Shown: piece after piece, positions 25,523 through 62,795 of the stretch | How positions within the stretch are numbered: position 1 is the first letter of the stretch | Layout: the number at the start of each line of letters is the position of its first letter | Made by a program: the position numbers and the translations under genes | NCBI GenBank assembly: GCA_037176725.1 | Contig: JAZBRS010000026.1 | Coordinates: 150,051,501 to 150,115,500 of the forward strand | Direction of reading: 5' to 3' | DNA from: Posidonia oceanica | Taxonomy: Eukaryota; Streptophyta; Magnoliopsida; Alismatales; Posidoniaceae | Length of the DNA: 64,000 nucleotides | The notes under the pieces: model-generated | Databases searched by the model: none | Seen by the model: only the letters and a program-made list of their open reading frames with translations | What the model was told of the DNA's origin: nothing

Positions 25523-25609
25523 GTTGGACGCTAACCAGAGCAGCGTCCAACGTAAGACGCTAGAATAGACGGCGTCTAACGTTGGACGCTGGCACCGCCA
25601 ACGTCTAAC
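25523..25609 (-). repeat. Three abutting 29-bp inverted-repeat units
   Basis: Units lie at 25523-25551, 25552-25580 and 25581-25609. The first is a perfect 10-bp stem, GTTGGACGCT/AGCGTCCAAC, with a 9-base loop. Confidence 0.92.
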
Positions 25610-25823
25610 GTCCTAGAGGTGTTTCAGGGTTGTTTTAGGGATTTTGGCTTAGGTTAGGGCTTGGGTTAAGGCTTAGGATTAGCTTAGGTATGGTTTAGGT
25701 GAGGTTTAGGTGGGTTTAGGTAAGTTTTGGGCTTGGTCAAGGATTAGGATTTGGGATGCCATAATCCGAGCAAGCCTTCAGAGAGATTCACCGATAGCTA
25801 GCCGCCAAAATGGGGTGTCTACA

Positions 25824-25839
25824 GATGCCCCTCTCTGAG
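25824..25839 (-). promoter_or_regulatory. Polypurine tract of element D
   Basis: The minus strand reads CTCAGAGAGGGGCATC directly before the LTR TG. The same tract precedes the LTRs at 43857 and 48931. It would prime plus-strand DNA synthesis. Confidence 0.8.
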
Positions 25840-26335
25840 CGAGGTCAAGGGAACTAAGGCCGCTGCCCAAGGTTGACAAAGACACCCCGCCGAACCGGCA
25901 GGAGCACAGACGCTGTTGGTGTGAGTCACTTATTCGGCGGATGCACCGAAAGTCATGACTCGCTGCCGCAATGCGAGTGCAGATGCAAATGCAAATGCAT
26001 GATGCAATGTGGATGCTGATGCGAAAATTGCACTAATGCTCGTGGCACTGAACTTTGCTGGGGGAGACGCGGGTGATGCATGTGTGTGCGAGTGTTGTGT
26101 ATGAAGCACTGCTGCGTGTTGAGGCCCAAGGCAACTCCGGCACGAGATGCTGATGCTGCGTGCTGAGCTGTATACGGCTCTAAGCGATGCTAGTGTAATG
26201 CATGTTGATGTGATGCAGTATTCAACTCTGCTGGGGATGATATGCGATGCTGGTGCGCATGCAATGTTGATGTCACTATCTAGCATGTGATGCTGGTACT
26301 ACTACCTAGCATGCGATGTTGATGCAATGAATTAT
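25840..26335 (-). other. 3' untranslated region of element D with ATGC-rich low complexity
   Basis: No coding signal is seen. Words GATGCAAATGC, GATGCTGATGC and GTGATGC recur, the counterpart of the GCATTAGCATC-rich stretch at 43380-43700. Confidence 0.6.
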
Positions 26336-26515
26336 GAGTTGACGGACCCATCACCAGATAGTTTGGGTTATCAGCCCAAGGAGTTGACGGACTCGTGGCC
26401 GGATAGTTTAGGCTATCAGCCTGAGGAGTTGACGGACTCGTCACCGGATAGTTTGGGCTATCAGCCCGAGGAGTTGACGGACTCATCATCGGATAGTTTG
26501 GGTTATTGGCCCGAG
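26336..26515 (-). repeat. Four exact-period 45-bp hairpin cassettes
   Basis: Unit starts at 26336, 26381, 26426 and 26471. In element sense each unit carries GGGCTGATAGCCC and CTATCCGG, then GAGTCCGTCAACTC. The first part can fold as GGGCT/AGCCC or as GATAG/CTATC but not both. The open reading frame through it is a consequence of the 45-bp period. Confidence 0.92.
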
Positions 26516-26602
26516 AAAAAACGCCTGACATTGTGATGGATGTCATTCGGGTAATATGGGTTACCAAACCGAAAAGGAAACCAAGGGCAAAGGAAAATGA
26601 TG

Positions 26603-26632
26603 CCCCTGGTATCAAGGAGATGATACCAGGGG
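26603..26632 (-). repeat. 12-bp perfect hairpin CCCCTGGTATCA
   Basis: CCCCTGGTATCA (26603-26614) and TGATACCAGGGG (26621-26632) are separated by six bases. Matching hairpins lie at 27795, 42057 and 47317. Confidence 0.92.
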
Positions 26633-26919
26633 GCAGCTAAAAGTGCTCCTAGTACCGAGAGAAAGGCTAGACAGTATGACGGGTGTCGACCGAGTAGTTA
26701 GGGTTGCCAGCCCAGAATAGAAGAAAGACAGCTTGTCCTCGCTCGAGGAAGAAAGCAGACGATTGGAGCCGCACAAAAGGGAAGGGGCAGAATCTTGCTG
26801 CTAAGTAAGTAAGCAAGAAAAGGGGGCATCTTTTCCTACTGAGAAGGTTGAGCAAGCGGGACTCCGTCTGCCCGGAGCGAAGAGTCGCAAAGAACGATAA
26901 TTGGCAAGTTTTAGACTTA

Positions 26920-27124
26920 CCGACGGGAGGGCTCGATGTGATAAATGATAGGTTTCGGACCTATCGACCGCAAAAAAAAGAAAGAAAAGGGGGGCAGATA
27001 AGTTTCGAACTTATCGACCGAAGGAGATAGATTTCGGACCTATCGACTGCAAAGGTAGGAGATAAGTTTCAGGCTTATTACTGGAAAAGATAGATGATAA
27101 GTTTCGAACTTATTGACTAGAAGC
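26920..27124 (-). repeat. Hairpin series GATAGGT/ACCTATC and GATAAGT/ACTTATC
   Basis: Five or so stem-loops with loop TTCGG or TTCGA: GATAGGT...ACCTATC near 26947 and GATAAGT...ACTTATC near 26997, then diverged copies. The stems differ by a G-C to A-T pair swap. Confidence 0.85.
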
Positions 27125-27673
27125 GATAGTTTATGGTCCTATCAACCGAAAGCGATAGTTTACAGTCCTATCAATTGGAAAGGATAGGTGATAAGTTTCG
27201 GACTTATTGATCGGAAGCGATAGTTTACGATCCTACCAACAGGAAGCGATAGTTTACGATCCTATCAATCGGAAAGGATAGGTGATAAGTTTCAGACTTA
27301 TTGACTGGAAGTGATAGTTTATGGTCCTATCAACCGGAAGCGATAGTTTATGATCCTATAAACCAGAAGCGATAGTTTACGGTCCTATTAACCGGAAGCG
27401 ATAGTTTACGGTCCTATCAACCGGAAAGGATAGGTGATAAGTTTCAGACTTATCGACCGAAAGTGATAGTTTACGGTCTTATCAACCGGAAGTGATAGTT
27501 TACGGTCCTATCAATCGGAAGCGATAGTTTACGGTCCTATCAACCGGAAAGGATAGGTGATAAGTTTCAAACTTATCGACTGGAAGCGATAGTTTACGGT
27601 CCTATCAACCGGAAGCAATAGTTTACGGTCCTATCAACCGGAAGCGATAGTTTACAGTCCTATCAACCAGAAA
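27125..27673 (-). repeat. Higher-order array: 14 x 29 bp with four 36-bp units
   Basis: The 29-bp unit is GATAGTTTACGGTCCTATC plus AACCGGAAGC. The 36-bp unit inserts GATAGGT before a GATAAGT...ACTTAT hairpin. The order is 2 short, 1 long, 2, 1, 4, 1, 3, 1, 3 short. Every short unit has stem GATAG/CTATC. Two inverted copies of the short unit occur at about 47460-47518. Confidence 0.93.
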
Positions 27674-28308
27674 GGATAACGTGAGCACCAAAACCCGAAA
27701 GCGGGGCAAAAGTTGTAGATGGGCCCGCGACAGTTTAGGAATGTCAACCTAGATGCAGATGGGAGAGCGATACCACAGGGCAGCAAAAAAGATGCCCCTA
27801 GTATCAGGAATGATACCAGGGGATAGTTGAAGCGCCATTGGCATCGAAAAGCGAAGGATAGAGACAAAACTGACGTGTTTGCCAAATGAGTAGTTAGGGG
27901 TACCAGCCCGGATGGGGATCTGGGTGAGAGTGCTCGGCAGCCTTGCTTGCTATAGTTCTGGCATTGATCTACAGAGATTTTGATATTCCGACAGAATGTA
28001 GGGGCTTTCCTGCAGTTTCCTTGCGTTGAGGATTCTGGCAGCTGCTTCTGACTTTGCGAACTGTTAGGGTCCGATGGTGCCCTCCTCGTGGTTTGATGTG
28101 CGAGGTTGATGCGGCATTCTGACTGCAATCTGGACAAATGGCTCAAAGCTGTGGTTGTGCGAGAACATGCATGGAAGACAACTCAACACACAAGCAATTG
28201 GTACAACAAAACATCATTGCATTGATTCAGGTCTTGATTACATGCCCATAGCTGGGTCGGACAAGATACAACAAAACTCAAAACAGAACATGCAATTGCG
28301 CAAGTGCC
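27674..28308 (-). other. Spacer between PMD relic and hairpin arrays, element D
   Basis: No coding signal is seen. It holds a second copy of the 12-bp hairpin at 27795-27822 (CCCCTAGTATCA/TGATACCAGGGG), where the single change is a G-U pair in element-sense RNA, and a lone CAGCCCGGATGG cassette remnant near 27905. Confidence 0.7.
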
Positions 28309-29625
28309 CTAACTGGTCTGGGGCTTCTTGGATCTCCTGTTGTCAGGGAATAGAGGTGTGCCAGGTGGGATCTCGTTGATGGGCCAGAGCCCCTATACCT
28401 CAGTCACATACTCAGAAGTGCACCCTGAGCCTCTCACAGCCGCAATGTTTGTCGACTGCACTCCATGGCACATCAGGTTGGCAAGCTCTGTTGTAGCAGC
28501 AGTTGAACTGAGGGGATAGGGCTGAAGAAGCCTAGGTGCTGTGCTGTCGACAAAGGCACCCTACTGGAAGTCGAACTGCCGCATGACCTAGATAGGGTGA
28601 TACTCTACATCCCTGGTGAACCCTGGCAGCACCACTAGTCGCATGTCACAAGTGCTGAAGAAGACAATGAATGGCTTAGCCATGGATGGGATGATATGCT
28701 AGGTTACCGCGTCATTCGTCGGTTTTGATAGCTTCCTATATTCTTCGCAGACGCTCTGAATGGTCCGAGCATGGCCGCTACGGCAGTAAGACTCAAAGGC
28801 CGATCTCTGTGGGCACAGAAGGTCCATTCCCAGATGCCTAGCCAGCCAAAACTGTACCAAGGCCCCGCAGCCGTGGAAGTGGCGGTAGCGGTGTGAGATG
28901 CGGTCCAGCCTGCGATAAGTCTCTGCTAGGACTACTGGTGCCAAGTCGATCTGCCAGGTCACCATGGCAAGTGCAATTTCGGCAATCTCAATTGCAACCA
29001 TCATCCGGCCATGACTGAAGATTAGCTCCCCTAAGAAGCGGGTAACAAAACCCCGGAGCCACAGTTCATCTCCGAGCTCGGCGCGCTTCTCGGCAACTTC
29101 ATCAAGGTATCCCAGGCGGAGCATGGGCGTAGGCCTGTTGGAGCAGATCAACCTTTGCTGGCCGTCCGCAGTAGAGAGTCCAGACAGTTGGCTCAAGATC
29201 TCAATATATCTGCTGCGCCTCATGAAGATAGTTGGTCCCATGAGCTTGGAGAAGCTGCAGATCCGGCGTACTTCTTCCAGTGTGGGAGTCAGCTCTGTTC
29301 TTCCGAAGTGGAAGACATGGTGCGCTGGCTTCCAGAATCTCGCCGTAGCGCACAGGAGGTGTCGGTTCACCTCCACATCAGCTGCCCTCAAAAGCTTGGA
29401 CGGGAGACCCCACAAACGCAGCCTCTCGTGGTCATCTTCGGTGAGTTTGCCAATCCACCCCCGAAGAGTCTCAGAGTAATGTGTCGGGGTTACCAAAGTA
29501 GGGAAACCCATCTCACTGGCAAGGAGGGAGGAAATAGGGGCGCTTGAGAGAAGAACTGAGGCAAGCACACAATACTGACTGTCAAAGAAGTAGATGCGCA
29601 TATCAAAGCTGATAAAGCAGTTCAT
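28309..29625 (-). pseudogene. PMD / DUF7745-like ORF carried by element D (broken)
   Basis: From the ATG at 29625, 308 codons are open, with SETLRGWIGKLTEDDHERL, LTPTLEEVRRICSF and FVTRFLGELIFSHGRMMVA, which I recognise as the PMD-like (DUF7745) type frequent in plant Ty3/gypsy elements. Coding continues in frame past TAG stops at 28701-28699, 28590-28588, 28563-28561 and 28395-28393 to a last TAG at 28311-28309, ending with NRRSKKPQTS. It lies downstream of integrase in the same orientation, between pol and the 3' LTR. PMD genes in plants include MAIN/MAIL1, which act in gene and TE silencing; the function of TE-borne copies is unknown. Confidence 0.82.
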
Positions 29626-31030
29626 ATGTTATAGCTAACAATCAGATCGCAGAGACCAAGCACATTCAGTTATGCAAAGGGACCTTGCCTACATAGGGCG
29701 AAGTCGCACAAAGAAGCACACTCGACCTCGCCTGCACGGAGCAAGGAAACAAGCAAAAGGGGCTTCGTTCGTTCGAAGCGAAGTCGCAAAAAAGGAGGGC
29801 ACACTTGTCCTCGTCCGCATAGAGCGAGGGGACAAGCGAAAGGGACTTCGTTCATCCGGAGCGAAGTCGCACAAATGATTGTTGGTAGTGCCTGGGCCAT
29901 GCAAGCCTACGGTCCCTGAGGGACCTCAAAGTGCCGAAGTTGTCCTGCTGCAAAGGAAATGACCATTCTGCCCCTGGCTACTAGCACACAGTCCAAACTG
30001 CTGTGCTAACAGTGATAGCCTGTTCCAGGGCTTGTCGGTGCTTGAACTGAGCGGTGGCAGGGCGAGCAGGTGGGAGCTTAGACCAATGTGGTTCGAGGGC
30101 GGTCAACCTGCCTTGGCAAAAGTACTGTCCCAGTGCCGAGCTGAGCCTTGCAGAGTGGTAGGGAGAGAGCAAAATGGATGATTAATGCTAGAGAAATGCA
30201 TGCATGATTTATGCTAGATTTCTATTGCCCTCAGTATATGGAGTGCTTAATGCCTGTTGCAAAGAAAAGGAGCAGTCCCTGATTCACCAGACTCTACTTG
30301 GACTCCTAACTATCGGTGGCACTCCAGAAGGGGTGATGATTTTGTACTTAGATGGTGGTGTGGTGAGGACAGGCTTCATACCAAACTCTCAAGGACCTAC
30401 ACCTACTTTTTTCATCATCTTTTTTATTCTATTGCTCCCACATAGGCATGCAGGCTTTTCCTATCCCTGGCTTGGAGGTAATGGGCGCCTGGTCTGAGGC
30501 AGGGGGAGCTGTTGCTGGACAGGGGTGGCTAGACCCTGTGGGACTTGAGGATTCTCTAGGCACAAACTTTGACTCCTCTCCAAGGTAAGCTGGAGGGACG
30601 GAGTTACATTGTTTGCCTCTATCTCTAGGGCTAACTTCTGTCTTCGCCTTCTATCTTCTTTTTCTTTTGTGCCCGTGCGTAGACATGTATTTTTCTAGCT
30701 CACACTCTTTCTCACACTAGCATTTTATCTCCCTCTAGGGGTGTAAGTCCTAGGGGTTTGGGCATTTCGACTGTCCTCATTGAGTGGTGGCTCCCTCACT
30801 GATTAGGACATCTAAGTAGCGTCGGGTGAGGTAGAGTAGACTCTTTCCAGAGCAGGCAAGCATCTCCGATTTTCGTCACTGGGCTATGATGGTAATGCAC
30901 ATGATATACATTTTTTGTTTTCTTTTTCTCTTTTTTTTTTTGATAAATAATCATGACTAAAATGCAGGGGGGTGTGAATGCATGAAGTAAAAGAAAGGGG
31001 ACTTTGCAATGTAAGGGTGGCTTCGGGCTA
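29626..31030 (-). other. Integrase-PMD spacer of element D
   Basis: No coding signal is seen. At 29695-29880 two diverged units carry CGAAGTCGCA plus hairpins: GCTTCG...CGAAGC, GACTTCG...CGAAGTC and TTGTCCTCG...CGAGGGGACAA. A poly-T/C run lies at 30910-30940. The remainder (29881-31030) is unremarkable. Confidence 0.6.
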
Positions 31031-32643: not shown

Positions 32644-32719
32644 TGTACACACCCCATTTTTTCAATTTTTTGTGCCATTGAATCTCTCTCTCTTTGGTGG
32701 CTTCAAAACAAGCCCTAAA

Positions 32720-33180
32720 AACCAAATCCAAAACCACACCCATTTTCTAAACCAAAAACCACTCACTAAACCCTTGGAAAACCCTAGGTTAAAACCCTAG
32801 GATCACACGCCCTAAACCCCAGAAAAATCCTAGGTTAAAACCCTAGAAAACCCTAGGATCACACTCACTAAACCCTAGGAAAACCCTAGGATCACACTCC
32901 CTAAACCCTAGAAAAACCCTAGGTTAAAACCCTAGAAAACCATAGGATCACACTCACTAAACCAAAAACCACTCACTAAACCCTAGGAAAAACCATGGTT
33001 AAAACCTTAGAAAACCCTAGGATCACACTCCCTAAACCATAGAAAAACCCTAGATTAAAATCATAGAAAACCCTAGGATCGCACTCACTAAGCCCTAGAA
33101 AAATCTAAGGTTAAAACCCTAGAAAACCCTAGGATCACACTCACCCAAACCTTAAAACCTAGAAACTCACTCACTTAAAA
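32720..33180 (+). repeat. AAACCCTAGG-type repeats in LTR
   Basis: Irregular tandem units carry AAACCCTAGGAAAACCCTAGG and GATCACACTCACTAAACC. The paired LTR has them at 49030-49440. The words resemble the telo-box AAACCCTAA. Confidence 0.85.
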
Positions 33181-33720
33181 GCCAAGCCCAAGCCCACTTT
33201 CCTTCTCTCTTTTTCATCTTCCCTTCTTTCCTTCTTTCTTTCCTTTTCTTCTTCTTCTCCTTCTTCTTTTCTTTCTCTTTTTTTTCCAAAAACCATTTCA
33301 GCCCAAGCCCGCTCACTCCTTCCTTTCTTTTCCTTTTTTCTTTTTACCATTTCAGCCCAAGCCCACAACACTCTTCTTTCCCTCTTCCTTTTTTTCTTTT
33401 TTTTTCTTTTCTTCTTCTTTCAATCTCTTCAGCCCAAGCCCAACACTCTTCTCCCTTCCTTTCTCTTTTCTTTTATTTCTTTTTTTCATCCAGCCCAGCC
33501 CACCTCTCCTTCTCTTTTCTTTTTTCTTCTTTTCAATCCAGCCCAGCCCACCTCCTCCTTTTTATTTCTTTTTTCTTTTTTCTTCTTTTCAAGCCCACCA
33601 GCCCACAGCCTTCTCCCCTTCCTTTCCTTTCCTTTTCTTTCTTATTTCATTTCTCAGGCCCGGCCCATCTCCACAGCCTTCCTCTTCTTTCTTTTTTTCC
33701 TTCCTCTTTTCCCAGCCAGC
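33180..33720 (+). repeat. Pyrimidine tract of LTR
   Basis: About 540 bp are almost entirely C and T on the plus strand, broken only by CAGCCCAAGCCCA words. Equivalents lie at 49460-50040 and, inverted, at 4140-4350, 11630-11920 and 20090-20340. Confidence 0.85.
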
Positions 33721-35940
33721 CGGACACCCTTCTCCTTTTTTCTTCCTCCTCAACTGCTGTAAAACCACAGCACCTTCACGGCCTTCTCATTCCTCCTTCA
33801 CGGCCTTCAATGCTTCCCCCCTCTACACTCATTACCCATCCATTCAACACCTAGCTTCTCCTCCTTTCCCGCTCACACACAGCTCCCAATCCACCCTCCA
33901 ATGTCGGCCATTTCTCTGCCAAAAATGGCACCCATCCACTCAACCTCAGGCCTTCCCTCCACAACAAAACCAACCCCTCCATTCCCCAGCAAGAGGGGCG
34001 GCAATTCACCTTCCAAACACACACCCACACACAGCAGCACAGTGAGAAGAGAGAAACCCATCACAGAGGACCCCTTTTTTTCTCTCCACTGCAAACACTG
34101 TCCAGAACCTTCCACAGACCTCCCATCCATCTTCCTGAGACCTCCACCAATCCCAAAGGGAGAGACAGCGGCCCAGAGAGAGCCACATTGGCGGAAAGAG
34201 CTCAAAATTTCACAGTGCACCCAAAATCCAAAAATCGGTTTCTGAGCGGCAAAACCAACTTCTGGTTGGCTCCACACCTTCGTCGGACCTCCAGCAACTC
34301 GCGCTGATCGTCCTTAGCAGCCGCAGCTCACCGCAGTGCCGCCGCAACCCTCCGCCGGACTGCCAGACCCAACCGAGGTCGGTAGTACGCTCCGGCCATC
34401 GTCGCAGGTAATGGACCTCACCTCTGAACTCCTTGCATGTCTACCTTGCTTCCTAGCTAGTTAGATTTAGGTTTAGGGCTTCAGTGCGAGTTTCGAGCTC
34501 CGCCGCTACAGTCCTTCTTCTCCAGCGACGATTTGTAGCTCCACCGTGCGCCGCCACGCTCTGGACAACCGCTGCTCCTCTAGACCTTCCCTTGAGCATC
34601 GTCGGAGTACCAGCAATGCGCTCCAGCCCCGCTCGACCGCTGTCGGGGCCTCCTGCGCCTGCTTCCCCTCTGGCAGTGGCCGTACCTCCGCACCGATGTC
34701 GACAGCACGTCTCAGCCACCGCCGCATGCTACCAGACTCACCGGAATGCTCAACTGGCTTCGCCCAAGTCTCCGAACACCTCCGTGCAGTTGCACGCCCG
34801 CCGGACCGCCGCAGCACCACCTCCTTCTCCGGCATAAGCCTGTTGAGCGCGAACTTGCACTGTAGCAAGATATAGTTTTGATTTTTATTTTGTTAAGTGC
34901 ATTGAATTAAATTGTTGGAGGTTTTTTTATTTACGTTTTAGTCCAATTTCAATTCAAATCATTTATTTCTGTTTTTTTACTTTACTGCATTGCAATTAGG
35001 TTCTCATGTTTATTTAGTTTTGCATTTCAGTCATTTTTCAATTGATAAATCATTTAATTTTTATTTAAAACCATACTGCATTACATAAAACTACTGCAAG
35101 TTTCATTTATTGCACTTTAGTCCACAGACCATGCATTTAATCATTTAAATCGTATTTTTTATCTTATTGCATTACAGTTTAGTCCTGCAACTTACTTTTA
35201 TTGCATTTAAGTCCTCAAATCATTTATCATTCATTTAATTTCTGTTTTAACCTTACTGCATTGCATAAAAATCCAAAAATATGTTGTAATTGCATATCAG
35301 TCCAATTTGTTGTGAATCATTCATTTAAATTCTGTTCAAAACTATATTGCATTGCTGTTTAGTCCAACAACTTGTTTTACTTGCATTTGAGTCCTATATG
35401 CATTTAAATGTCATTTAAGTTGCATTTTAAACCATATTGCATTGCAGTAAAATACAATAGTTTGTTTTAATTGCATATTAGTCCAAAAATGTTAGATCAT
35501 TGCATGCTTGCCTGTTTATTTTGCTTTTGCAATTAAGTCTAATAGTTTATGTTAATTACATGTTAATCCCAATTTCAATTGATTGCATGTTTGTATGTTT
35601 GTCTTGCATTGCATATAAGTCCAACATGTTTTCTAAACTGCACGTAGGTCCAAATGTTGCATGCATTCATAATTGCTCTGCCTTGCACAAAAACCCAACA
35701 GTTAGGTCTAATTGCATGTTAGTCCTAAAATCCAACTATTGCATGTTTGCATGTTTCTTTTGCTTTGCACTTTAGTCCTGCATGTTTTCATAACTGCATG
35801 TAGGTCCATTCCTTGCATTATTGCATGCACATCTTTTAATTAATGTTGCATTCTGCCCTTACATGCCTATACTCTGCTGCATTTATATTTTTGCATACAT
35901 ATTATCCTGTTGCATTGCATTTTGCCATGTTTTTGCATAT

Positions 35941-40074: not shown

Positions 40075-40240
40075 TATCACTGGGCTAATACCCTTAACTA
40101 TTCGGCGATAGGTCCGTTAACCTATCATCACTGGGCTGGCAGCCCTAACTGCTCGGTGATAAGTCTGTCAACTTATCATTCGGGCTAATATCCCTAACTA
40201 TTCGGTGATAAGTCCATCAACTTATCACCCGCACACAACA
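40075..40240 (+). repeat. Three hairpin cassettes of element F
   Basis: Three diverged cassettes carry GGGCTAATACCC or GGGCTGGCAGCCC, then GATAGGTCCGTTAACCTATC or GATAAGT...ACTTATC. Stem changes are paired. Confidence 0.88.
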
Positions 40241-41635
40241 ATCACTTTGCATGCATATCCATCATCTTGCATATATCTGTCATCATGCATTGTCATTTAT
40301 TGCATGTACATATCGTTTCTTGCATCTTGTAAAGCATAAAGCCAAAAAAATTAAGAAAATAAAAAATAGCAAAAATATTTTCTTCGCCTTCCTACTGGTT
40401 TTCGCTTTTATGTTTTCCTAAAAAAAATCATAAAAATACAAAACCAATGCAAAACCCAAAAACATGTTTGTCCTTTCCCTTGCTAAAATATACAAAACCT
40501 ACAAACATTTGTATAATCAGAAACCGACTTTGGACGAACAAGCAGCGCCTAGAGGATGTCAAGCAGTGATGATCTCAGGCAGGTCTCACTCGAGCGGTGC
40601 CATCTCTTGCATGTGGCTATAGAGTGAGACTAGTGCAGAACAGAGTGTCTCGCTGAGCTCGATGCTCCCAAAGCGAGATCCACCTTAACCAGAGAGTCCA
40701 CCAGACATGGAGAGGACCAAAGCAGAGCAGAGCATAGCCAGAGGCTGTTGACACATTGCAGAGACTGAGGGTGTACGCCGATCAGCCAAACTCTCAACGC
40801 CTCATCCGGGACTGCTACCCCAAGAGGGCGAAGACATGCATATCCAAAAGAATAGAGGTCATGTGAGCAAAAGAAATGTGACAACATGATATGCATGCTG
40901 AGCACAAAAGAAAAATGCAGAAAGAAGTTAAAGAAAGAAGGCGCTCATGAGAGGAGTGACGTGGACGAGTGTTGAAGCCACCTCAGCTATCAGCTCCAAG
41001 CATCACACTGGCAACTGCACGAGATGCACTATCAGGAGGACCTGGCCCCACCCTCCGAGCGCAGCAGCACGCTCCAATCTCCTCTACAGACATCTCTACT
41101 CCCTTGGCAGGCTAGATGCAACTCTAGTCACTCATGAGGGGAAAAGAAAGATCTATTCTGTGAGCGTCAAAAGCGGTGGCTGGTCCCCGAAGAATTGAGA
41201 TGGAGGCTGTGAAGCCGCATCCAATGCTTCTGCTACCCTACAGCCAAAGGCTATACTCTGCAACGTTGAGGCCTCATCCCAGGCCAAGAGTCAGAAAGAG
41301 AGCCACCGAGGCATCCTAAGTCAGGAACTACAGAGGCATCCTCATGGCACAGCTGCTTTGAGTCCAAAGCCACCAAAACATGCATGCTGTAATATATTTT
41401 TATCTTCTTCCCTTCTCCCTATTTTTGAAAATCGGAGCCAAGGACGAGCACTTGTGCCTACCTCGCTCAGAGGCTCCGTAGTTTTCAAGTTATGTCGCCC
41501 ACCGCGTGGGCAGGTCCGTGATGACCGGCATGTACCTCGTTTGTCACCTCGTGACGCCACGAAGCGTGCCCGCGCTGAGACCATTGCACGCCTATCATGA
41601 TGGGTTCCTGTTTCCTTTCTGCATCATTCTGCATT
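40241..41635 (+). other. Spacer of element F
   Basis: No recognisable coding region. Short inverted repeats such as GCCCACCGCGTGGGC (near 41500) occur. The place corresponds to the pol/PMD interval of element D, but neither is visible. Confidence 0.5.
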
Positions 41636-47344: not shown

Positions 47345-47459
47345 CATCTATTTTGCCACCATGTGGTATCACTCCCTGCATCCAAGCTGACATTCCTAAA
47401 CTGTCACGGGCCCATTCGCAGCTTTTGCCCTGCTTTCGGGTTTTGGTGTTCCCGTTATC

Positions 47460-47520
47460 GCTTCCGGTTGATAGGACCGTAAACTATCACTTCCGGTTGA
47501 TAGGACCGTAAACTATCGCT
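47460..47520 (+). repeat. Two copies of the 29-bp GATAG/CTATC unit
   Basis: CTTCCGGTTGATAGGACCGT plus AAACTATC occurs twice in tandem, the inverse of the short unit of the 27125-27673 array. Confidence 0.9.
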
Positions 47521-47523
47521 TTT

Positions 47524-47909
47524 TTCGGATTGACAGCCCTAACTGCTCGACGATGGGTCCGTCAACCTATCATTCTGCATTCCTTTGCATCCATTTGCAT
47601 TGGGCTGGCAGCCCTAACTACTCGATTGACGCCCGTTAAAATGTCATCCTGCATATTCGCATTGCATTTGGGCTGATAGCCCTAATTATCCGGTGATGAC
47701 TCTGTCAACTCCTCATCGGGCTGATAGCCCTAACTATCCAGTGATGAGTTCGTTAACTCCTCATCGGGTTGATAGCCCTAACTATCCGATAATGAGTCCG
47801 TTAACTCCTCATCGGGTTGATAGCCCTAACTATCCGGCGATGAGTCCGTTAACTCCTCAGTGGGCTGATAGCCCTAACTATCCGGCGATAGGTTCGTTAA
47901 CTTATCACC
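47524..47909 (+). repeat. Hairpin-cassette array, 48-bp period
   Basis: Seven cassettes; the last four start at 47717, 47765, 47813 and 47861, exactly 48 bp apart. Each carries GGGCTGATAGCCCTAACTAT, then GATGAGTCCGTTAACTC. The final unit ends GATAGGTTCGTTAACTTATC. Confidence 0.93.
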
Positions 47910-48930: not shown

Positions 48931-51492
48931 TGTAGACATCCCATTTTTTCAATTTTTTGTGCTATTGAATCTCTCTCTCTTTGGTGGCTTCAAAACAAGC
49001 CCTAAAAACCAAATCCAAAACCACACCCATTTTCTAAACCAAAAACCACTCACTAAACCCTAGGAAAATCTTAGGTTAAAACCCTAGGATCACACTCCCT
49101 AAACCCTAGAAAAACCCTAGGTTAAAATCCTAGAAAAGCCTAGGATCACACTCACTAAACCAAAAACCACTCACTAAACCCTAGGAAAACCCTAGGTTAA
49201 AACCCTAGGATCACACTCCCTAAACCCTAGAAAACCCTAGGATCACACTCACTAAACCAAAAACCACTCAGTAAACCCTAGGAAAACCCTAGAAAACCCT
49301 AGGATCACACTCCCTAAACCCTAGAAAACCCTAGATTAAAACCCTAGAAAACCCTAGGATCACACTCACTAAGCCTTAGAAAAACCCTAGGTTAAAACCC
49401 TAGAAAACCCTAGGATCACACTCACCCAAACCTTAAAACCTAGAAACTCACTCACTCAAAAGCCAAGCCCAAGCCCACTTTCCTTCTCCCTTTTTCATCT
49501 TCCCTTCTTTCCTTCTTTCCTTCTTTCTTTCCTTTCCTTTTCTTCTTCTTCTCCTCCTCCTTTTCTTTCTCTTTTTTTCCAAAAACCACTTCAGCCCAAG
49601 CCCGCTCACTTCTTCCTTTCTTCTCCTTTTTTTTCTTTTTACCATTTCAGCCCAAGCCCACAACACTCTTCTTTCCCTCTTCCTTTTTTTCTTTTTTTTC
49701 TTTTCTTCTTCTTTCAATCTTTTCAGCCCAAGCCCAACACTCTTCTCCCTTCCTTTCTCTTTTCTTTTATTTCTTTTTTTCATCCAGCCCAGCCCACCTC
49801 TCCTTCTCTTTTCTTTTTTCTTCTTTTCAATCCAGCCCAGCCCACCTCCTCCTTTTTATTTCATTTTTCATTTTTCTTCTTTTCAAGCCCACCAACCCAC
49901 AACCTTCTCCCCTTCCTTTCCTTTTCTTTTCTTTTTTATTTCATTTCTCAGCCCCGGCCCATCTCCACAGCCTTCCTCTTCTTTCTTTTTTTCCTTCCTC
50001 TTTTCCCAGCCAGCCCGACACCCTTCTCCTTTTTTCTTCCTCCTCAGCTGCTGTAAAACCATAGCACCTTCACGGCCTTCTCATTCCTCCTTCACGGCCT
50101 TCAATGCTTCCCCCCTCTACACTCATTACCCATCCTTTCAACACCTAGCTTCTCCTCCTTTCCCGCTCACACATAGCTCCCAATCCACCCTCCAATGTCG
50201 GCCATTTCTCAGCCAAAAACAGCACCCATCCACTCAACCTCAGGCCTTCCCTCCACAACAAAACCAACCCCTCCATTCCCCAGCAAGAGAGGCGGCAATT
50301 CACCTTCCAAACACACACCCACACACCCACACACAGCATCACAATGAGAAGAGAGAAACCCATCACAGAGGACCCCTTTTGTTCTCTTCATTGCAAACAC
50401 CGACCAGAATCTTCCATAGACCTCCCTTCCATCTTCTTTAGACCTCCACCAATCTCAGAGGGAGAGACAATGGCCCAGAGAGAGCCACATTGGCAGAAAG
50501 AGCTCAAAATTTCACAGTGCACCTAAAATCGAAAAATTAGGTTCTGAGCGGCAAAACCAACTTCTGGTTGGCTCCACACTTCCGCCAGACCTCCAGCAAC
50601 TTGCACCGATCGTCCCCAGCAGCCGCAGCTCACCGCAGCACCGTCGCGACCCTCCGCCGGACTGCCTGACCCAACCGAGGTTGGCAGCACGCTCCGGCCA
50701 TCGTCGCAGGTAATGGACCTCACCTTTGAACTCCTTGCATGTCTACCTTGCTTCCTAGCTAGTTAGATTTAGGTTTAGGGCTTCAGTGCATGTTTTGAGC
50801 TCCGCCACTACAGTCCTTCTTCTCTGGCGACGATCTGCAGCTCCGCCGCGTGCTGCCACACTCCGGACAACCGCTGCTCCTCCAGACCTTCCCCCGAGCA
50901 CCGCCGGAGTACCAGCAATGCGCTCCAGCCCCGCTTGACTGCCGTCGAGGCCTCCTGCGCCTGCTCCGCCTCTAGTAGTGGCCGGACCTCCGCATCGACG
51001 TCGATAGCATGCCTCAGCCACCGCCGCGTGCCGCCAGACCGCCGCAGCACCACCTCATTCTCTGGCACAGGCCTGTTGAGCGCGAACTTGCACTGTAGCA
51101 AGATATTGTTTTGATATTTATTTTGTTAAGTGCATTGAATTTAATTGCTACAGGTTATTTTATTTACATTTCAGTCCAATTTCAATTCAAATTATTTAAT
51201 TTCTGTTTTTTTACTTTACTACATTGCAATTAGGTCCTCATGTTTATTTAGTTTTGCATTTCAGTCCTTTTTCAATTGATAAATTATTTAATTTCTATTA
51301 AAACCATACTGCATTGCATAAAACTACTGCATGTTTTATTTATTGCACTTTAGTCCACAGACCATGCATTTAATCATTTAAATCGTATTTTTTATCTTAT
51401 TGCATTATAGTTTAGTACTACAACTTACTTTTATTGCATTTAAGTCCTCAGATCATTTATCATTCATTTAATTTATGTTTTAACCTTACTGC
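48931..51492 (+). mobile_element. 3' LTR of composite element F, cut by element E
   Basis: It aligns almost base for base with 32644 to about 35250: AAACCCTAGG repeats, pyrimidine tract, GC-rich block, TGCA-rich repeats. It stops at TAACCTTACTGC, where element E begins. The missing remainder should lie beyond E, outside the window. Confidence 0.9.
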
Positions 51493-51704
51493 TGTAGATA
51501 CCCCGTTTTGGCACTCCCTTCATGTTAGTATAGTCTCTTGCATTAGGTCGCTCTTAGAAGCCCTCTGCCCAATCCAGAATGTCTCATTCGAGCCAAATGT
51601 TTTCTCTCAAGTCCAAAATGTTATCCTTATCTAAGCCCCAAGTGTCGGCAACTTGAATATCCTTCATGTCCTGACCAAATTTGGAATTTGAACTGACTGA
51701 GGGT

Positions 51705-51788
51705 GTTGTACGCTGGCTTCTCAGCGTACAACGTTGGTCGTTGGTTTTCTAGCGGCTAACATTGGCCGTTGGTTTTCCAACGTCCAAC
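51705..51788 (+). repeat. Three abutting 28-bp inverted-repeat units
   Basis: Unit 1 is a perfect 11-bp stem GTTGTACGCTG/CAGCGTACAAC. Unit 2, GTTGGTCGTT/AGCGGCTAAC, pairs at all ten positions if G-U is allowed. Unit 3 has ATTGGCCGTTGG/CCAACGTCCAAC. Confidence 0.92.
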
Positions 51789-51962
51789 GTGGCAACCCAA
51801 TCAGCCCAAAGTTTTCCTTATTTGGCCAAATCCAAAAAATCGTTTTTTGCCTTCTTTGGAACCTGTTGACTGGTCAAAGCCATTAAAGCTGAGTTTAAAC
51901 ACACTTAATGACTCCTTAATGGGGGAATCTTCTCTTATCCTGACAGTTATGTCTTGGAGGTC

Positions 51963-52018
51963 GTTATACGCTGGGACTCTCGCTTATAACGTTATACGCT
52001 AGTTTTCTAGCGTATAAC
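51963..52018 (+). repeat. Two abutting 28-bp inverted-repeat units
   Basis: The second is a perfect 12-bp stem GTTATACGCTAG/CTAGCGTATAAC with a TTTT loop. The first pairs only GTTATA/TATAAC. Confidence 0.92.
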
Positions 52019-52921: not shown

Positions 52922-54442
52922 TGGCTAAAAGTGCCTCCGTGCAAGGTGAGTAAGCCCTTCTTTCTTCTTCCTCATTATTGACATTCTTAGTTTAGTTTTA
53001 TTTTCTTAATTTTTCATAAGTTTTAAGGTAGCGGTGAAATTCCTCGTAGTGTTTTGAGGCGCTGTGACCCTTCTTATTTTTTTCCCACGTCCAAATAACT
53101 GAAATCACTTCCCCCTTTTCTTTGGATTCTCGGGAGTGGAGGTGGTTTGTAAAAGCTACTGGTTTTTCTGCAAAAAACTCTGTCAATACGTTATATGCGT
53201 GATCTGGCGCGTCTAACATTGGACGCTCCAATATCCACGTCTAACGACTACTGAACAGAGACCTTTCTATTTTAAATTTTCTCTTGGTTTTCTTTTCATA
53301 ACTGGCCCAAGGACTGAGGTGTGAGGTAATCGACTTTGCCGTAGGGACCGGAGCCTTAATACTTGGGTGCTTTTAAAAAAAAAACAAAAAAAATCGGATC
53401 TTTTTATATGACTTGCATGGCCCTCATTGGGAACTAATTGTTTGTGTCGTTTCTTGAGTTATATAAGTAACCGTCTAGGTCCCAAGCACCTCTGTTGCAA
53501 AGGACTTAGGAAAGGTACTTGTATTGTCATTGTCTTTCACAAGGGCTCTTCTTCTTCCTTGGCTTTTTGTGAAAGATAATTAGAACCTCAAGCTTTAACA
53601 TGTATTCCTCCCTCCCCCTTTGGGTGGTTTGATTGTGCTTTGTGTGTTGATACGTGAGTGACCCGATCAATCCCGAGTACGCTGGGCTCTACCTCTATGG
53701 GGTAGGGACCTAAGTGTATTCAAGCTCCCCCTAGCATCCTCAAGAGTTGAGGTAGGAGGTAGTACCAAAAAAATATTTACCCATTTTGTGAGGAGCCATA
53801 GAAATCCCGAAAAAGAAGCCATACCTAAGCCTTAAGGAACCTAGAGAGCTACAGCAGGTTTAAAACACTGATCTCAAAGCGAAAACAGAAATTAAAACCT
53901 TAAATTGTTGTTTGAAAGTGTTTCTGTGTAGTTCTCTGAAACAGGACGTTAGCCGCTGGGATCTCTGCGTCTAACGTTGTGCGTAGTAGTTTCCGCGTCT
54001 AACGTATTCTCTGTGTGGTTGTTTATTTTCTAGCCTTTCTGTGGTGGATTAATTGTAGGGTAAAACATTGAAAAAAAACCCATAAACAAGACAATGGCAG
54101 TTTTATCTTTCAGTATTTACTTTCTAGGGACTTGTGTTAGATCACAAAGTTTGTAATTTCTTTTCCATTGTAAGCACTTGTAATCCTTCATTTATACAGA
54201 AAAAAAGAAGAAAAGGAAAAGAGCAAAAAACAAATTGAAAAAAGAAAGAAGAAAAAAAAAATCAGAAAAGCAAAAAAAAAAAAAACAAAAAAAAAATAGA
54301 GAGAAAAGCTGAGAAGAAAAGAGAAGACAGGAGGAAATACAACTGGGATCGTTGGACGCGCAGTTTACTGCGTCCAACGTTATACGCTGCAGTCTGAGGT
54401 GTATTACGCCCTGAAGCCAATTCCATCTCAAAAGCTGTTACA
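52922..54442 (+). other. Leader of element E with three hairpin clusters
   Basis: No coding region is supported. 28-bp inverted-repeat pairs lie at 53190-53245 (with GCGTCTAAC and ATTGGACGCT), 53948-54003 (GTTAGCCGCT, GCGTCTAAC twice) and 54351-54407 (perfect GTTGGACGC/GCGTCCAAC, then a weaker GTTATACGC unit). An A-rich run lies at 54200-54300. Confidence 0.75.
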
Positions 54443-57559: not shown

Positions 57560-58074
57560 AATGAAAGAAGACACAGGCCAGGATCTTGATCTATGACCTC
57601 ATAAACAGCTCAAATCAACACCGGAAAGCTCTGCAAGAAGTGCTAGAGAAGGCTCAAGTTGCTCTAGATATGCCAGCGGAGGAACTCCATGTTATCGCTA
57701 CAGTGGCCTTTGTAGAGCCTATCATTACCTTTGCTGATAGCGAGTTGGTGCCAATAGAGAGGAGAAAAGCACCATTGAATGTAACCATTTCTATAAACAA
57801 TCACTTAATTTCTGAAGTGCTCATAGATACTGGTGCATCAATGAACATTTGCTCGTTAAATACAATACGAGCCTTGGGCGTAAATGAGGCTTCCTTAACC
57901 CCCATTGATATGACGATTGCTGGGTATGATGACAGCAAAAGAAAAGCACACGGCAAGTGGACCACAAAGATAGGGATAGGACCAGCTCAGGTTCTAACCC
58001 AACTAATCATCATAGACATAAATGTCCCATATCAGATCATCCTGGGGAGACAATGGCTGGACAGTTTAAAATGA
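57560..58074 (+). pseudogene. Element E protease (second retropepsin domain)
   Basis: KKTQARILIYDLINSSNQH and the following leader, then LNVTISINNHLISEVLIDTGASMNIC with DTGA encoded at 57826-57837, and IILGRQWLDSL at the end, are the usual Tat-lineage protease context. It is open from 57586 to a TGA at 58072-58074, after which the same frame continues. It would process Gag-Pol. Confidence 0.9.
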
Positions 58075-59100
58075 GTATCATCTCCTCGGCACCAGTGCCT
58101 AAAATTTCCTCACGATGGGAAAATCATCAAGATAGCAAGGGACATACCAGGTCAAGTAGCAGAGGCAAATGTGATATACCTGCCACACCAGTTCAGTGTG
58201 CGAGAAAAGCGGACCTGTGCCGAAAAGGACAAGAATGTAGTATCTATGGTCAAGCTAAGAGACAAGTGGGCCAGGCCTAGGCTATTTCACAAGAAGAAGG
58301 AACCCTCAAAAAGCAAAAGACCCTCCATGAATGTGGGATGGGAGATCATGAGGAGAATTGGCTACAAGGAAGGCCAGGGCTTAGGCCTAGAAGGAAAGGG
58401 AATGAAGGAGCCAGTAAAGGCCTGTGACAGAAAAGGAAGGGGAGGACTCAGTTTCGATCAGTTCCCCGATGGACGACCATTACAGTGGAATCTACAAGGA
58501 CATTTTACCAATGTAGGGATCTTCGACCCGAATTCACCCCCCCTAGGAAATATTATTTTGGTGCAATCAACCAAACACACTCTCCAAAGTGTAGAGGACA
58601 TAGCTGACGTAAACATTTCCGGCTTATTCCAAACACTTGAATTGCCAACAGAGCCTCACAAAGGTCAGACTGCAAGGGAGTTGATAGCAGAGCCTCACGA
58701 AGGCCAGACTGTAGCAGTAGAGCCTCACGAAGGTCAGACTGCAGAAGAGTTGCCAGTAGAGCCTCACGAAGGTCAGACTACAACATCGCCGCCACCACTG
58801 TTAGGTGCACCGGCCCCCGAACCTCTGGATCGGTCACCTCTTTCTTCTTCTCCCTCTTCTTCTAACACCGCCACTTCCAAGCCTCCGCCTCCTCCAGCTC
58901 TAGACATCTCTTCCTCTTTGGAGCAAAGGCCGGGGCAAACTCTACGCAAGTCACAACGACTCGTAGACAGGGTTCGCCGCCTCACGGTTGATCTTTCTGA
59001 AGGTCTGCAGCCTCAAAGACCTGAAATTGACCCCGATCCAGGGCCTGACCATGAGCTTCTCGAAGATGATGGGAACGTCGACCATGACGAGCCCGCCTAG
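58075..59100 (+). pseudogene. Element E G-patch region and proline-rich linker
   Basis: In the protease frame, GWEIMRRIGYKEGQGLGLEG with GMKEPVKA (58336-58420) matches the G-patch consensus of Gly-spaced residues, a nucleic-acid-binding module found after protease in some retroviruses and plant Ty3/gypsy elements. It is followed by four EPHEGQT repeats, a Pro/Ser-rich stretch, and DHELLEDDGNVDHDEPA at the stop (59098-59100). The RT frame overlaps the end in +1 register. Confidence 0.82.
58651..58779 (+). repeat. EPHEGQT coding repeat
   Basis: Units start at 58651, 58690, 58720 and 58759, alternating 39, 30 and 39 bp, all in frame. Confidence 0.92.
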
Positions 59101-60646
59101 AAAGACTCCTACTTCTACTAATGGAGGTAACTCTAGGGGCATCCCCCTAGATGCTGTAAATAAAATTTTGTTTAATTCTGCATTGTTTTCATTTCCTAGG
59201 AATAAAAGTAATTTACTTTCTGTTTTCAATAAGGGAGAGGATCACCATGTTAGTTCTAGCAGCTCGCAGTCAACTTCGACCACTGCTTCCAAAACTGTGC
59301 ACGTGTGTCACTACACAGAGGTATTGCCTCAGGAGCTGGCTACTGCTAACATGGTCTTCCTAGTAGAAGAATTTGACCGGTTTGGGAAGTGTGCAGGAAT
59401 GGAGGCATATGAGCTGGTTAACTGCAGTGATGAGGAAGAAGATCAAGAGGCCAACTCAGACCTCCTTAGGCACCTCATGGACAAGTATGATGAGCAAACC
59501 AAGGCAGCTGAAGAAGACACCGTGGAGGTCAATCTGGGAACCGCCGAAGAGGCAAAACCAATACTCATAAGTGCAAGTTTGAGCCCAAAAGAGCGGGAGG
59601 AAATGGTCCAAATCTTGAAAGAATTTGTGGATGTACTGGCCTTCAAGTACGAGGATATGCCTGGTCTACAATCAGCCCTAGTGGAACACCTGCTTCCACT
59701 AAACTCTAGAACCAAACCCGTTAAGCAGAAGTTGAGGCGACTAAGGCCGAAACTCGCCCTCAAAGTCAAAGAAGAAATTGACAAGCTCCATAAAGCGAAA
59801 TTTATTAGGGTGGTTGTGTACCCCAGTTGGGTCTCAAATATAGTACCAGTGGCCAAAAAGGACGGGAAGATTCGGGTTTGCATTGACTATCGCAACCTCA
59901 ACGCCGCCTGTCCCAAAGGTGACTTCCCTTTGCCACATATTGACTTGCTAGTGGACAATACAGCAGGATTTGAGATGCTATCTTTCATGGATGGTTTCTC
60001 CGGTTACAATCAGATTAAGCTAGCAGAAGAGGACCAAGAGAAGACGTCATTCATCACACCATGGGGGACATACTTCTATGTAGTCATGCCATTCGGTCTC
60101 AAGAACACTGGCGCAACATATCGGAGAGCGATGATGGCCATCTTCCACGACATGATGCACGATTGCATGGAAGTATGTGTTGACGATATCTTGGTCAAAT
60201 TAAGAACAAGAGAGTCACACTTTGAGGCACTAAGAAGAGTACTAAGTAGGGCAAGGCAATATCAGCTAAAAATGAACCCAAAGAAATGTGTGTTTAGGGT
60301 AACTGCCGGGAAGCTACTGGGCTTCATCATCAGCAAAAGAGGAATCGAAGTGGACCCACAGAAGGCTAGAGCAATAGCACAGATGCCTCCGCCCCGAAAC
60401 ATCAAGGAACTCAGAGGACTTATCGGTCGCTTACAGTTCATCAGGAGATTCATCTCACAGCACGCAAATCGATGTAAACCATTTTATGAGTTACTAAAAG
60501 GAGGGAGGGAATTTACTTGGGATGAGAAATGCTAGAAAGCTTTTGATGAACTCAAAGCATACCTCATGAACCCCCTAGTCTTGTCGGTGCCTATATCAGG
60601 GAAGCCTTTGCTACTCTATGTGGCAGTCACTGCATCATCAATAGGG
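58988..60646 (+). pseudogene. Element E reverse transcriptase and RNase H start (Tat lineage)
   Basis: Open for 515 codons to TAG 60533-60535. Motifs: VSNIVPVAKKDGKIRVCIDY, CPKGDFPLPHIDLLVDNT, LSFMDGFSGYNQIKLAEED, VMPFGLKNTGATYRRAM, catalytic CVDD (60176-60187, usually YVDD), and LLGFIISKRGIEV. The TAG replaces a family Gln before KAFDELK; RNase H then begins (LLLYVAVTASSIG) and breaks at about 60646. Effective translation would start upstream; the ATG at 58988 is arbitrary. Confidence 0.92.
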
Positions 60647-61220
60647 TAATGGGCAAGCTGAAACTACTAATAAAACGTTAATCCAAATCCTTAAGAAAAC
60701 GGTAGGAGGAACCAAGGGACATGACTGGACAGATAAGCTAATTGATACCTTATGGGCCTATCGAACCTCCATAAGAATGCCTACGGGCCAAACCCCGTTT
60801 GCGCTTACTTATGGTATGGAGACGTTAGTCCCATTTGAGGTCATGGTCCCCTCATCTAGGGTAGAACTCGACAATGAAATAACTGCCGAGGATAAGAGGC
60901 AATTATTAAGTCTACAGTTGGATTTGCTAGATGAGAAGCGGTTGCAAGTAGCTGAGCATGCACGCCTCTACCAAGAATGACTTGCAAGAGCATATAAGAA
61001 GAAAGTAATTGAACGTAAATTCAATGTTGGTGAATGGGTGCTTAAAGAAATCCTTCCTCGTAAGCATGGGAAACTGAGACCGAATTGGGAAGGACCATAC
61101 TTGGTGGTTGAGGCATATCTGGGCAATGCCTATTATTTGGCCAGAGAGGATGGCACTAGGCTTGAATATCCCTAGAATGCACTACACCTCAAGAGGTACT
61201 ACCCTCGACATGCACACTGA
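60645..61220 (+). pseudogene. Element E integrase, C-terminal part after an internal deletion
   Basis: The frame resumes within the end of the catalytic core, GNGQAETTNKTLIQILKK, then WAYRTSIRMPTGQTPFAL, KFNVGEWVLKEILP, LRPNWEGPYLVVEAY and ALHLKRYYPRHAH with TGA at 61218-61220. TGA at 60978-60980 replaces the Arg of QERLARAY, and a TAG replaces Trp before NALHLK. The rest of RNase H, the zinc domain and the first two catalytic Asp are deleted. Confidence 0.9.
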
Positions 61221-62668
61221 GCCATTAGACTGAGCCATTAGACTACCCGTGCTTGAGGGCCTACTGCTGTTGAAGCCTAGGAGTCATGCCTCAGCCTCAC
61301 CCCACAAACACTTCATGGGAGAAGGAAAGGAAATGGTCCAACACTGAGATAGAGGCAAATCATAAGGAGCCCCCTCCCAGTTCATGAATAACAAGTCCAC
61401 ACACATCCCTCAAGTTAGACACGTTACCCTAGTACAAATCGGGTAGGCGTCTAAGGCCAAAACCTAGAAGCGCAGAAAAGAGGGGAGTGTACCAAATAAA
61501 AGTGTGTCTCGGTTCGTCAAGGAACGAGTATCCATTGACCGAGTACTCAGAAGAGGTGAGACTACTTGCCAAAGTACCCAGAAAAGAAAACAAAAAAGGG
61601 TCCGAAAAGAAGGCAGCAAAGAAGCTGTCCATGTGCAAGAAAAGAAAGAGAATGGAAAAGAAGGCAGCAAAGAAGCTGTCCAAGAGTCAAAACTGAAAAG
61701 CTGGGGACTACTAAGCATAGTAGGAATCAACCTTGAACTAAGAGGGGTTTAGGCTTCAAATCTTCAACCGACATCTTAGGGTAGGACATGGACTTTCCTT
61801 CCACCCACGTCCCGCACCGTACACATTAGAGGCAAGGGGCAGAGGCCTAGGTCTAAGGGCAGTTATGTGCTAAAGCAAGCCCGAGGTATTTTCTGACTCT
61901 GAGATGCACAAGGGACTAAACTATCAAGGTTTTCCAGCTATGAGGTCCCTAGTTTCCCAACTTCCCGGAGGATTCTTCGTCTCCCATAAAATCAAAAATA
62001 AAAAAAAATGATAAAATAAAAAATCCAAAAAAATGATAAAATCAAAAATCCAAAAAATGATGATAAAATAAAAAATCCAAAAAAAATGATAAAGTCAAAA
62101 ATCCAAAAAAATGATAAAGTCAAAAATCCAAAAAATGATAAAATCAAAAATCCAAAAAAAATGATAAAACTGAAAATCCAAAAAAAATGATAGTGAGTAG
62201 AGTAAAATCTACCCAACCAACATCACCTCATGAAATTGATAACAAGAGAGGCCAGTGATGCAAAAATTTAGGACATTTTTCGACTTCGCGTCGTACTTGA
62301 CCCCTCCTATTCAGGACAGTCACTTAGTATTCGCCTACAAGCTAAGACTGGGATCTCGAGAAGAGACAGTCCCTCGTCTGGCATATCATCTTTAGACAAC
62401 AAAGCTGAGGCCAATACTTGTTATTCAAAACCTAAGTTTCCCTTAACTTCTCCATTGCATTAAGACTTCTTTTTTCCCATTCATAGCATTAGGTTTGCTT
62501 AAAGTATGCATTGTGTATAGGTTATTACCATGTGTTCTGTAACCGTTTTGATTTCATAGTATTAAGGATGTTTCTGAGTTTCCAGAAGTCACTTTGGACT
62601 AGGGGCAATAATACCCCTAGATGGATTAACAAATTTGCTGAGGTTGTGTAGGAGAACAATTCAGGGGC
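61221..62668 (+). other. 3' region of element E
   Basis: No gene is supported. A direct repeat AAGAAGGCAGCAAAGAAGCT lies at about 61608 and 61659. An A-rich array of eight or so units built on AAAATCCAAAAAAATGATAA covers 61985-62195. No 3' LTR start is seen. Confidence 0.65.
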
Positions 62669-62795
62669 GTTAAATGAGCAAATACCAGCGTCCAACGTTG
62701 GACGCACTATCTGAAGCGTATAACGACCAACAGAGGGATATTGGACGCTTGATATCACGCGTCTTACGTTATAAGTGCCAGTTTGAGCGTCTTAC
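62669..62795 (+). repeat. Four 28-bp inverted-repeat units in E 3' region
   Basis: Units lie at 62669-62696, 62697-62724, 62740-62767 and 62768-62795. Half-sites include GTTGGACGC, GCGTCCAAC, GCGTATAAC and GCGTCTTAC. Two pairs are separated by 15 bases; pairing is weaker than in the LTR. Confidence 0.85.

Follow-up and report, generated by a model that had tools for sequence, protein, structure and literature searches.

The window analysed here is a stretch of 64,000 nucleotides (64 kb) from Posidonia oceanica (assembly GCA_037176725.1, contig JAZBRS010000026.1, positions 150,051,501 to 150,115,500 of the forward strand). It holds 40 copies of a short inverted-repeat unit, mostly as abutting pairs, in the long terminal repeats (LTRs) and leaders of two families of Ty3/gypsy retrotransposons, called A and B below. 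Each unit is 28 or 29 bp long and consists of a 9-base arm, 10 or 11 free bases and a second 9-base arm. An earlier note, made from the letters of this DNA alone, had counted about 39 units of 28/29 bp, and both figures hold. It also placed the clusters correctly but began the feature at 25523, whereas the first unit lies at 23957. The window is laid out as follows (ORF, open reading frame).

23957-24694, minus strand: family A array of four abutting pairs (23957-24014, 24181-24237, 24409-24465, 24638-24694)
25523-25609, minus strand: three family A units in one cluster, close to the LTR start
25812-25835, minus strand: LTR start TGTAGACACCCC with adjoining polypurine-like tract
28699-29628, minus strand: plant mobile domain ORF (PF10536, PF24924), sharing its strand with the family A LTR at 25823
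43857-43868, plus strand: family A LTR start TGTAGGCACTCC, preceded by ctcagggaggggcatc
44079-44165, plus strand: family A three-unit cluster
44763-44769, plus strand: splice-donor-like G/GTTAGT, judged by eye; the subsequent array lies in a T-rich, intron-like stretch
45027-46374, plus strand: family A array of pairs 45027-45083 and 45273-45330, single unit 45656-45684, and pairs 45857-45914, 46089-46145 and 46317-46374
51493-51504, plus strand: family B LTR start TGTAGATACCCC
51705-52018, plus strand: family B LTR sites, a triple (51705-51788) and a pair (51963-52018)
53190-54407, plus strand: family B sites ahead of the coding region, pairs 53190-53245, 53948-54003 and 54351-54407
57565-60535, plus strand: family B coding region with protease ORF (57565-58074), G-patch ORF (58075-59100) and reverse transcriptase ORF (58967-60535), stop to stop
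62669-62795, plus strand: two pairs of sites past the family B coding region (62669-62724 and 62740-62795), separated by 15 bp
63235-63999, minus strand: ORF with a plant mobile domain (PF10536), running antisense to the pol of family B

The units and their host elements

The hosts are plant-type Ty3/gypsy elements. Their protease, reverse transcriptase, integrase core, PF10536 domain, tract and primer site were found on separate copies, and relatives of the reverse transcriptase are named in Vitis, Theobroma, Gossypium and others. In L018, one of the loci fetched from the genome (numbered with an L), the LTR extends from TGTTGACACCCC at 4030 to 7473 and is followed by a primer-site-like TGGTGGCGACTC. 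The units of this locus (4271-6799) lie inside the LTR, with a four-unit cluster first and seven pairs after a splice-donor-like GGTTAGT (4964); by eye, a T-rich tract ending TTTCTTCCTCAG follows the arrays. In the sequence beyond L018, the coding content is broken by other LTR starts. Polypurine-like tracts stand beside LTR starts near arrays at 43857 and 25823 of the window and in L012 and L150, which suggests that the 3' LTRs also carry arrays. The five LTR sites of family B recur in four further copies (L156 twice, L157, L158), and no units were found between 54408 and 62668, the interval that contains its coding region. The pol ORFs of L151 are read as belonging to another element, because the integrase at their end is cut by the LTR.

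The two families, which the earlier note took to be unrelated, are better called related, because their LTR starts are alike (TGTAGACACCCCATTTTGG in family A, at 25823 on the minus strand, and TGTAGATACCCCGTTTTGG in family B, at 51493), a GGAGGGGC-type tract precedes the LTR start in both (for family B, in L158), and a PF10536 ORF lies near each. The two PF10536 ORFs align over only 39 residues, with 36% identity. The G-patch ORF of family B sits between the protease and the reverse transcriptase. Plant Gypsy elements and type D retroviruses are both described as containing this domain (PMC9289625), and the aRH domain is described as a mark of the Tat group (PMC6317226).

Counted as non-overlapping matches with at most four arm mismatches, 35 strong units are present in the window, where 50 Markov shuffles average 0.24 (maximum 3). 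A 200-kb sample of contig C25 gave 98 matches, falling in 7 of 20 stretches, against 1.1 (maximum 3) in shuffles. Read backwards as a control, the window yielded no match and the sample one. Throughout the genome (2.96 Gb), the exact form GTTGGACGC-N8-11-GCGTCCAAC occurs 96,550 times and its reversed control 0 times. Exact units account for 17 of the 98 in the C25 sample; a rough extrapolation, resting on that one contig, gives half a million units per genome. Matching stretches in prokaryote contigs (at least 119) and viral contigs (4) are regarded as chance. No such units were found in the literature searched, a body of text with most subscription papers outside its coverage; the arm string itself stands in 94 papers, and the titles of the 20 listed concern unrelated topics.

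The spacing of the arms is narrowly limited. When loops of 0 to 40 nt were scanned in the window and L001-L024 (minus L004), with at most one mismatch per arm, 135 hits were obtained. Ninety are strict single units, all with a loop of 10 (17 units) or 11 nt (73 units); the remaining 45 stand at 39 or 40 and span two units, with none elsewhere. Of 377 comparisons of units between copies, 45 show a loop length that differs by a single base, in a scan that allowed unit lengths of 28 and 29 only. Among 56 cases in which a 5' arm follows a 3' arm within 40 bp (at most one mismatch per arm), the distance between the two arms is 0 in 47; in the other nine it is 29, each spanning one unit. Abutment without spacers, as the earlier note had it, is therefore exact, and the junction of a doubled unit forms an 18-bp palindrome; the four units at 62669-62795 of the window are two pairs with 15 bp between them.

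The window and the fetched loci together contain 252 units in 125 clusters, namely 102 pairs, 11 triples, one quadruple and 11 singles, a tally that precedes the removal of chance rows and leaves units with more than seven mismatches outside the collection. Seven probable chance units (six in one count) and the near-identical locus L004 were dropped before later counts, as were L003 and L150 in one analysis. The longest run is three units in the window, and one run of four occurs in L018. The single unit at 45656 corresponds to two units in L018 (5845-5901), a whole-unit difference. A simple satellite found everywhere, which the earlier note had named as one case against itself, would form long head-to-tail arrays of units alike throughout. 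The units are indeed widespread, but they stand in runs of one to four, mostly as spaced pairs in retrotransposon LTRs, and loops and spacers vary within an array.

Constraint on arms, loops and spacers

Divergence between copies was compared at matching places in 21 of the 45 pairings of ten arrays (those with spacers less than 36% different, out-of-register cells omitted). Arm positions 2-6 differ at 119 of 2295 places (5.2%), spacers at 5286 of 19340 (27.3%) and loops at 817 of 2478 (33.0%), so that the inner arm letters vary five times less than the spacers, and the loops slightly more. Arm positions 1, 7, 8 and 9, which are CpG- or CHG-prone, differ at 377 of 1821 (20.7%), three quarters of the spacer rate; their raised divergence would fit methylation decay after insertion. 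These figures indicate that the arm letters, not the loops, are kept, and they agree with the earlier note in that the loops are not conserved.

Distances between pair centres cluster at 228-232 bp (26 of 63), 237-240 bp (9) and 244-249 bp (8). Gaps of 405 bp (L149:3531-3937) and 396 bp (L153:6338-6735) measure about two periods, as if one pair had been lost and its place kept. A constraint on spacer length found no evidence, as net length differences were 5.2 against a sign-flip expectation of 5.6. Compared with one another within their own locus, spacers gave no match at E 1e-3. Taken from separate places within an array, they resemble each other slightly when held in register (0.314 against 0.294, z 3.2) and are perhaps remotely related, and some at non-matching places of different loci align, for example L012:7396-7566 with L013:8716-8886. 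A ten-base T periodicity in the spacers was tried and dropped: pooled related copies gave z 5.5, 20 representatives z 1.9 (P 0.048), and an adjacent 840-bp stretch z 2.7. The spacers (window 45027-46374; L012, L013, L018, L020, L022) are enriched in TGCATG and GCATGC; TGCATG occurs 108 times in 61 spacers, against 24 expected, and CATGC or GCATG is present in 55 of the 61. We take these motifs to be RY-like.

According to the earlier note, both arms change together, and what persists is not the sequence but the fold, or else a dyad that a dimeric protein recognises. The examples it named are real, and those at 51705 and 51991 are family B LTR sites common to other copies, but the rule is not general. 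At arm positions 3-5, 116 of 241 units from both families carry a variant on at least one arm, and only 14 carry the same one on both. Sharing of the same variant triplet was seen in 14/116 cases within units, 11/58 across junctions, 5/59 between outer arms, 6/56 between 5' arms and 13/58 between 3' arms (L151 being misoriented here and in the position 4 count below). Arms that belong to one array but to separate clusters share variants less often, in 9/330. At position 4 alone, the figures for the same five comparisons are 23/59, 10/32 and 9/34, with 7/29 and 11/38 for the non-pairing arms. Since arms that are unable to pair share variants about as often as those that can, pairing does not appear to be specifically kept. 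Exchanging the 5' arms of abutting units at 122 junctions, mostly of family A, left the fold energy unchanged (real arms better in 43, worse in 41, equal in 38; p 0.74), and re-dealing the loops did not alter the mean (-12.11 against -12.11). A grouping of the clusters by the likeness of their flanks was set aside, since 105 of 119 fell into a single group, and its group-level outcome (7 better, 5 worse, p 0.38) carries no weight here. In general, then, arm letters are kept and most arm variants are uncompensated, contrary to the part of the note that favoured the fold.

A possible protein-binding site and its rivals

The limited spacing, the exact doubling, the conserved letters and the free loops suggest a DNA site of dyad symmetry at which a dimeric protein would bind, the other half of what the earlier note had proposed. 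That the units are such sites, clustered in a noncoding control region and working in the manner of VANC proteins, has in our judgement about an even chance of being right. In each unit two 9-bp arms, GTTGGACGC and its complement, which would serve as half-sites, stand 10 or 11 bp apart; the unit is usually doubled head to tail, and several doubled sites follow one another through the LTR and leader at intervals of about 229 or 240 bp. A dimeric sequence-specific protein, whether encoded by the element or supplied by its host, would bind the doubled sites as a cluster and might activate the element or lift its silencing, which is what VANC proteins do for VANDAL transposons. One candidate binder is the plant mobile domain (PF10536) protein. 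It is rather doubtful that the sites form a control system of this lineage's own, in which a dimeric protein, perhaps the plant mobile domain protein, acts on doubled four-half-site palindromes with nucleosome-scale spacing in the LTR leader, at perhaps half a million sites, as an independently evolved VANC-like arrangement. If the units are protein sites, one plant genome contains a conserved motif of regulatory type in about a hundred thousand exact copies, providing a ready DNA probe for the binding protein and a route to asking in what way retrotransposons with long LTRs evade host control or put it to use. With its loop of 10 or 11, free loop sequence and exact doubling, the architecture is unusual, and other genomes are easily screened for it.

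Several observations weigh against a protein-binding site. The low divergence of the arms was obtained on units picked for their resemblance to the arm consensus, a choice biased towards conserved arms. The plant mobile domain protein is only a candidate: it has no usable predicted structure (mean predicted local distance difference test, pLDDT, 48.6) and is weakly associated with the units, and as the binder it was set aside. L007, L011 and L017 match the PF10536 ORF at 71-72% and are followed by LTR starts, after which no units were found in the 3.8, 1.5 and 4.9 kb seen. Pairing at position 4 is strongest within units (136/159 against 113 expected, z 6.8). G.T exceeds A.C at arm positions 2-6 (40 to 15, P 0.001), which fits RNA pairing. 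In family B, the arms match within each of the five LTR sites yet differ between sites; among 120 permutations, the real arrangement ranks at or near the top in all five copies tested (P 0.033 each), which are related and not independent. Such matched arms are more natural for a hairpin, or for near-palindrome correction, than for one protein with one target.

These points lead to the main rival, above all for family B, namely that the units are stem-loops in the unspliced element RNA, serving packaging, dimerisation, or the control of splicing or translation. We consider this possible, though on balance unlikely. Retroviruses carry stem-loop packaging signals between the splice donor and gag, and the order in L018, with a splice-donor-like motif before the arrays and a T-rich tract after them (both by eye), is reminiscent of this. 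Three of the five family B LTR sites in the window fold to stems of 11 or 12 bp. Real arms also pair more strongly than they do after being re-dealt among all units (-12.1 against -11.6, standard deviation 0.1). In an alignment of 134 family A units, taken from 168 listed 29-base units (without L022, L151 and some others), 81.5% of cells are paired against 80.2%, a value reached by 9 of 500 shuffles, and the covariation score by 10 of 500; further pair types show no excess (26 against 26.0). On the other side, the arm exchange revealed no hairpin-specific match, and permuting arms within 17 family A arrays gave a combined z of 0.6, the top single array, the plus-strand one of the window, reaching z 2.4 (P 0.145). 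Folding has no strand preference (sense against antisense, p 0.32), no Rfam family matches the 64-kb window at gathering score, and the loop length is limited though the loop sequence is free. The 88 other mismatches at arm positions 2-6 misfit RNA pairing, and kinship of copies inflates the G.T to A.C count; at one family B site, the inner pairs 11 and 12 include seven G.T and ten A.C among the 50 copies listed. The matched form GTTATACGC-N-GCGTATAAC occurs 4,203 times in the genome, but its loops are closely alike among the 50 places listed (19 of the 50 are TGGTTTTCCA), so these look like one amplified site rather than thousands of events. Covariation, the test put forward by the earlier note, is present at position 4 and at position 5 (z 3.6 within units). 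Position 4, however, also covaries across junctions (67/83, z 3.1) and between outer arms (z 3.5). Covariation was therefore not accepted as proof of RNA structure, its specificity to pairing arms not being borne out.

The matched variants particular to single family B sites, and the whole-unit loss or gain seen at 45656, could also arise if the palindromes were a functionless by-product of copying, kept symmetric because templates are switched or near-palindromes corrected in the course of reverse transcription or replication, and multiplied along with the element. A copying by-product is improbable: it predicts arms of one unit more alike than those of neighbours, whereas exchanged arms pair equally well, and it leaves unexplained both the constant arm letters beside diverging loops and spacers and the loop limit of 10 or 11. 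The regular distances between pair centres, the in-register likeness of spacers and the alignment of spacers from non-matching places recall instead an old tandem repeat with a period of about 229 bp, made up of a double unit and its spacer, in which the spacers decayed while chance or gene conversion, not function, preserved the arms. This origin as the whole explanation seems very improbable, since spacers of the same locus do not match one another while the arms are near identical, and it is implausible that 9-bp conversion tracts would flank a free 10-bp loop; an array may have a common descent and its arms a function as well. That the units are short mobile palindromes which insert by themselves, like organelle double-hairpin elements, is scarcely credible. 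They do form hairpin pairs and occur in two families, but their places are common to copies along with loops and flanks, no target duplication was apparent by eye at the 19 window clusters, and the sites form a spaced array inside LTRs. Mitochondrial double-hairpin or repetitive hairpin elements are likewise described as short multi-copy hairpin-forming repeats, but as mobile and invasive ones, whereas the units stay in place within a retrotransposon.

Known systems and neighbouring sequences

For a site bound by a dimeric protein, VANC would be the nearest working precedent. VANC21 is described as binding the 9-base YAGTATTAY in vitro and VANC6 targets as enriched in AGTTGTCC and AGTTGTAC, with the motifs of both in tandem repeats in noncoding parts of the elements (PMC5735166); VANC binding is accompanied by loss of methylation (PMC5735166, PMC10398659). 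Like these targets in Arabidopsis VANDAL elements, which are short (8-9 bases there), present in many copies, noncoding and different between related families (PMC5735166, PMC10398659), the units are motifs repeated in noncoding transposon regions, the LTR and leader, in both the window and L018. VANDAL elements are Mutator-like, however, whereas the unit hosts, with protease, reverse transcriptase, LTR starts and primer site, are LTR retrotransposons. The text available of PMC5735166 has no palindrome or inverted wording for VANC targets, and it mentions neither a fixed loop nor doubled units nor a regular spacing. The VANC6 motif AGTTGTAC and the variant arm GTTGTACGC share GTTGTAC, which may be chance.

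Hypervariable 3' untranslated regions of plant LTR elements were reportedly treated by Macas et al. in 2009. Retand elements are described as carrying tandem repeats and antisense ORFs between pol and the 3' LTR (PMC11963269). Like the present hosts, they are plant Ty3/gypsy elements with repeats and extra ORFs outside gag-pol, some possibly of DNA-binding type (PMC11963269). The hosts here differ in their repeats, which are free-looped doubled palindromes placed for the most part in the LTR and leader, and in their ORF, which has PF10536 rather than TRP28. PF10536-bearing Gypsy elements have been reported (PMC7156037, PMC9289625), and a PF10536 ORF lies near both families here, although PF10536-bearing loci of this genome may have LTRs without units. 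MAIN and MAIL1 act in the silencing of transposable elements, and a common promoter motif marks the genes whose expression falls in their mutants; the text available of these two papers (PMC7156037, PMC9289625) does not describe PF10536 as binding DNA.

A long LTR-like pair without units, 91-94% alike, occupies 32644-35259 and 48931-51492 of the window. The family B start at 51493 coincides with the exact alignment end of the second LTR-like copy, as if family B had inserted into that copy. Tandem arrays at 26322-27678, 40076-42413 and 46847-47902, delimited partly by eye, contain short inverted repeats (GATAG..CTATC, GATAAG..CTTATC, GAGTTGACGGACTC, TTGTCACCGA..TCGGTTGACAA). A minisatellite with the small palindrome GGCACGCAAAACGGTGCC is present at 16489-16969 and 813-989.

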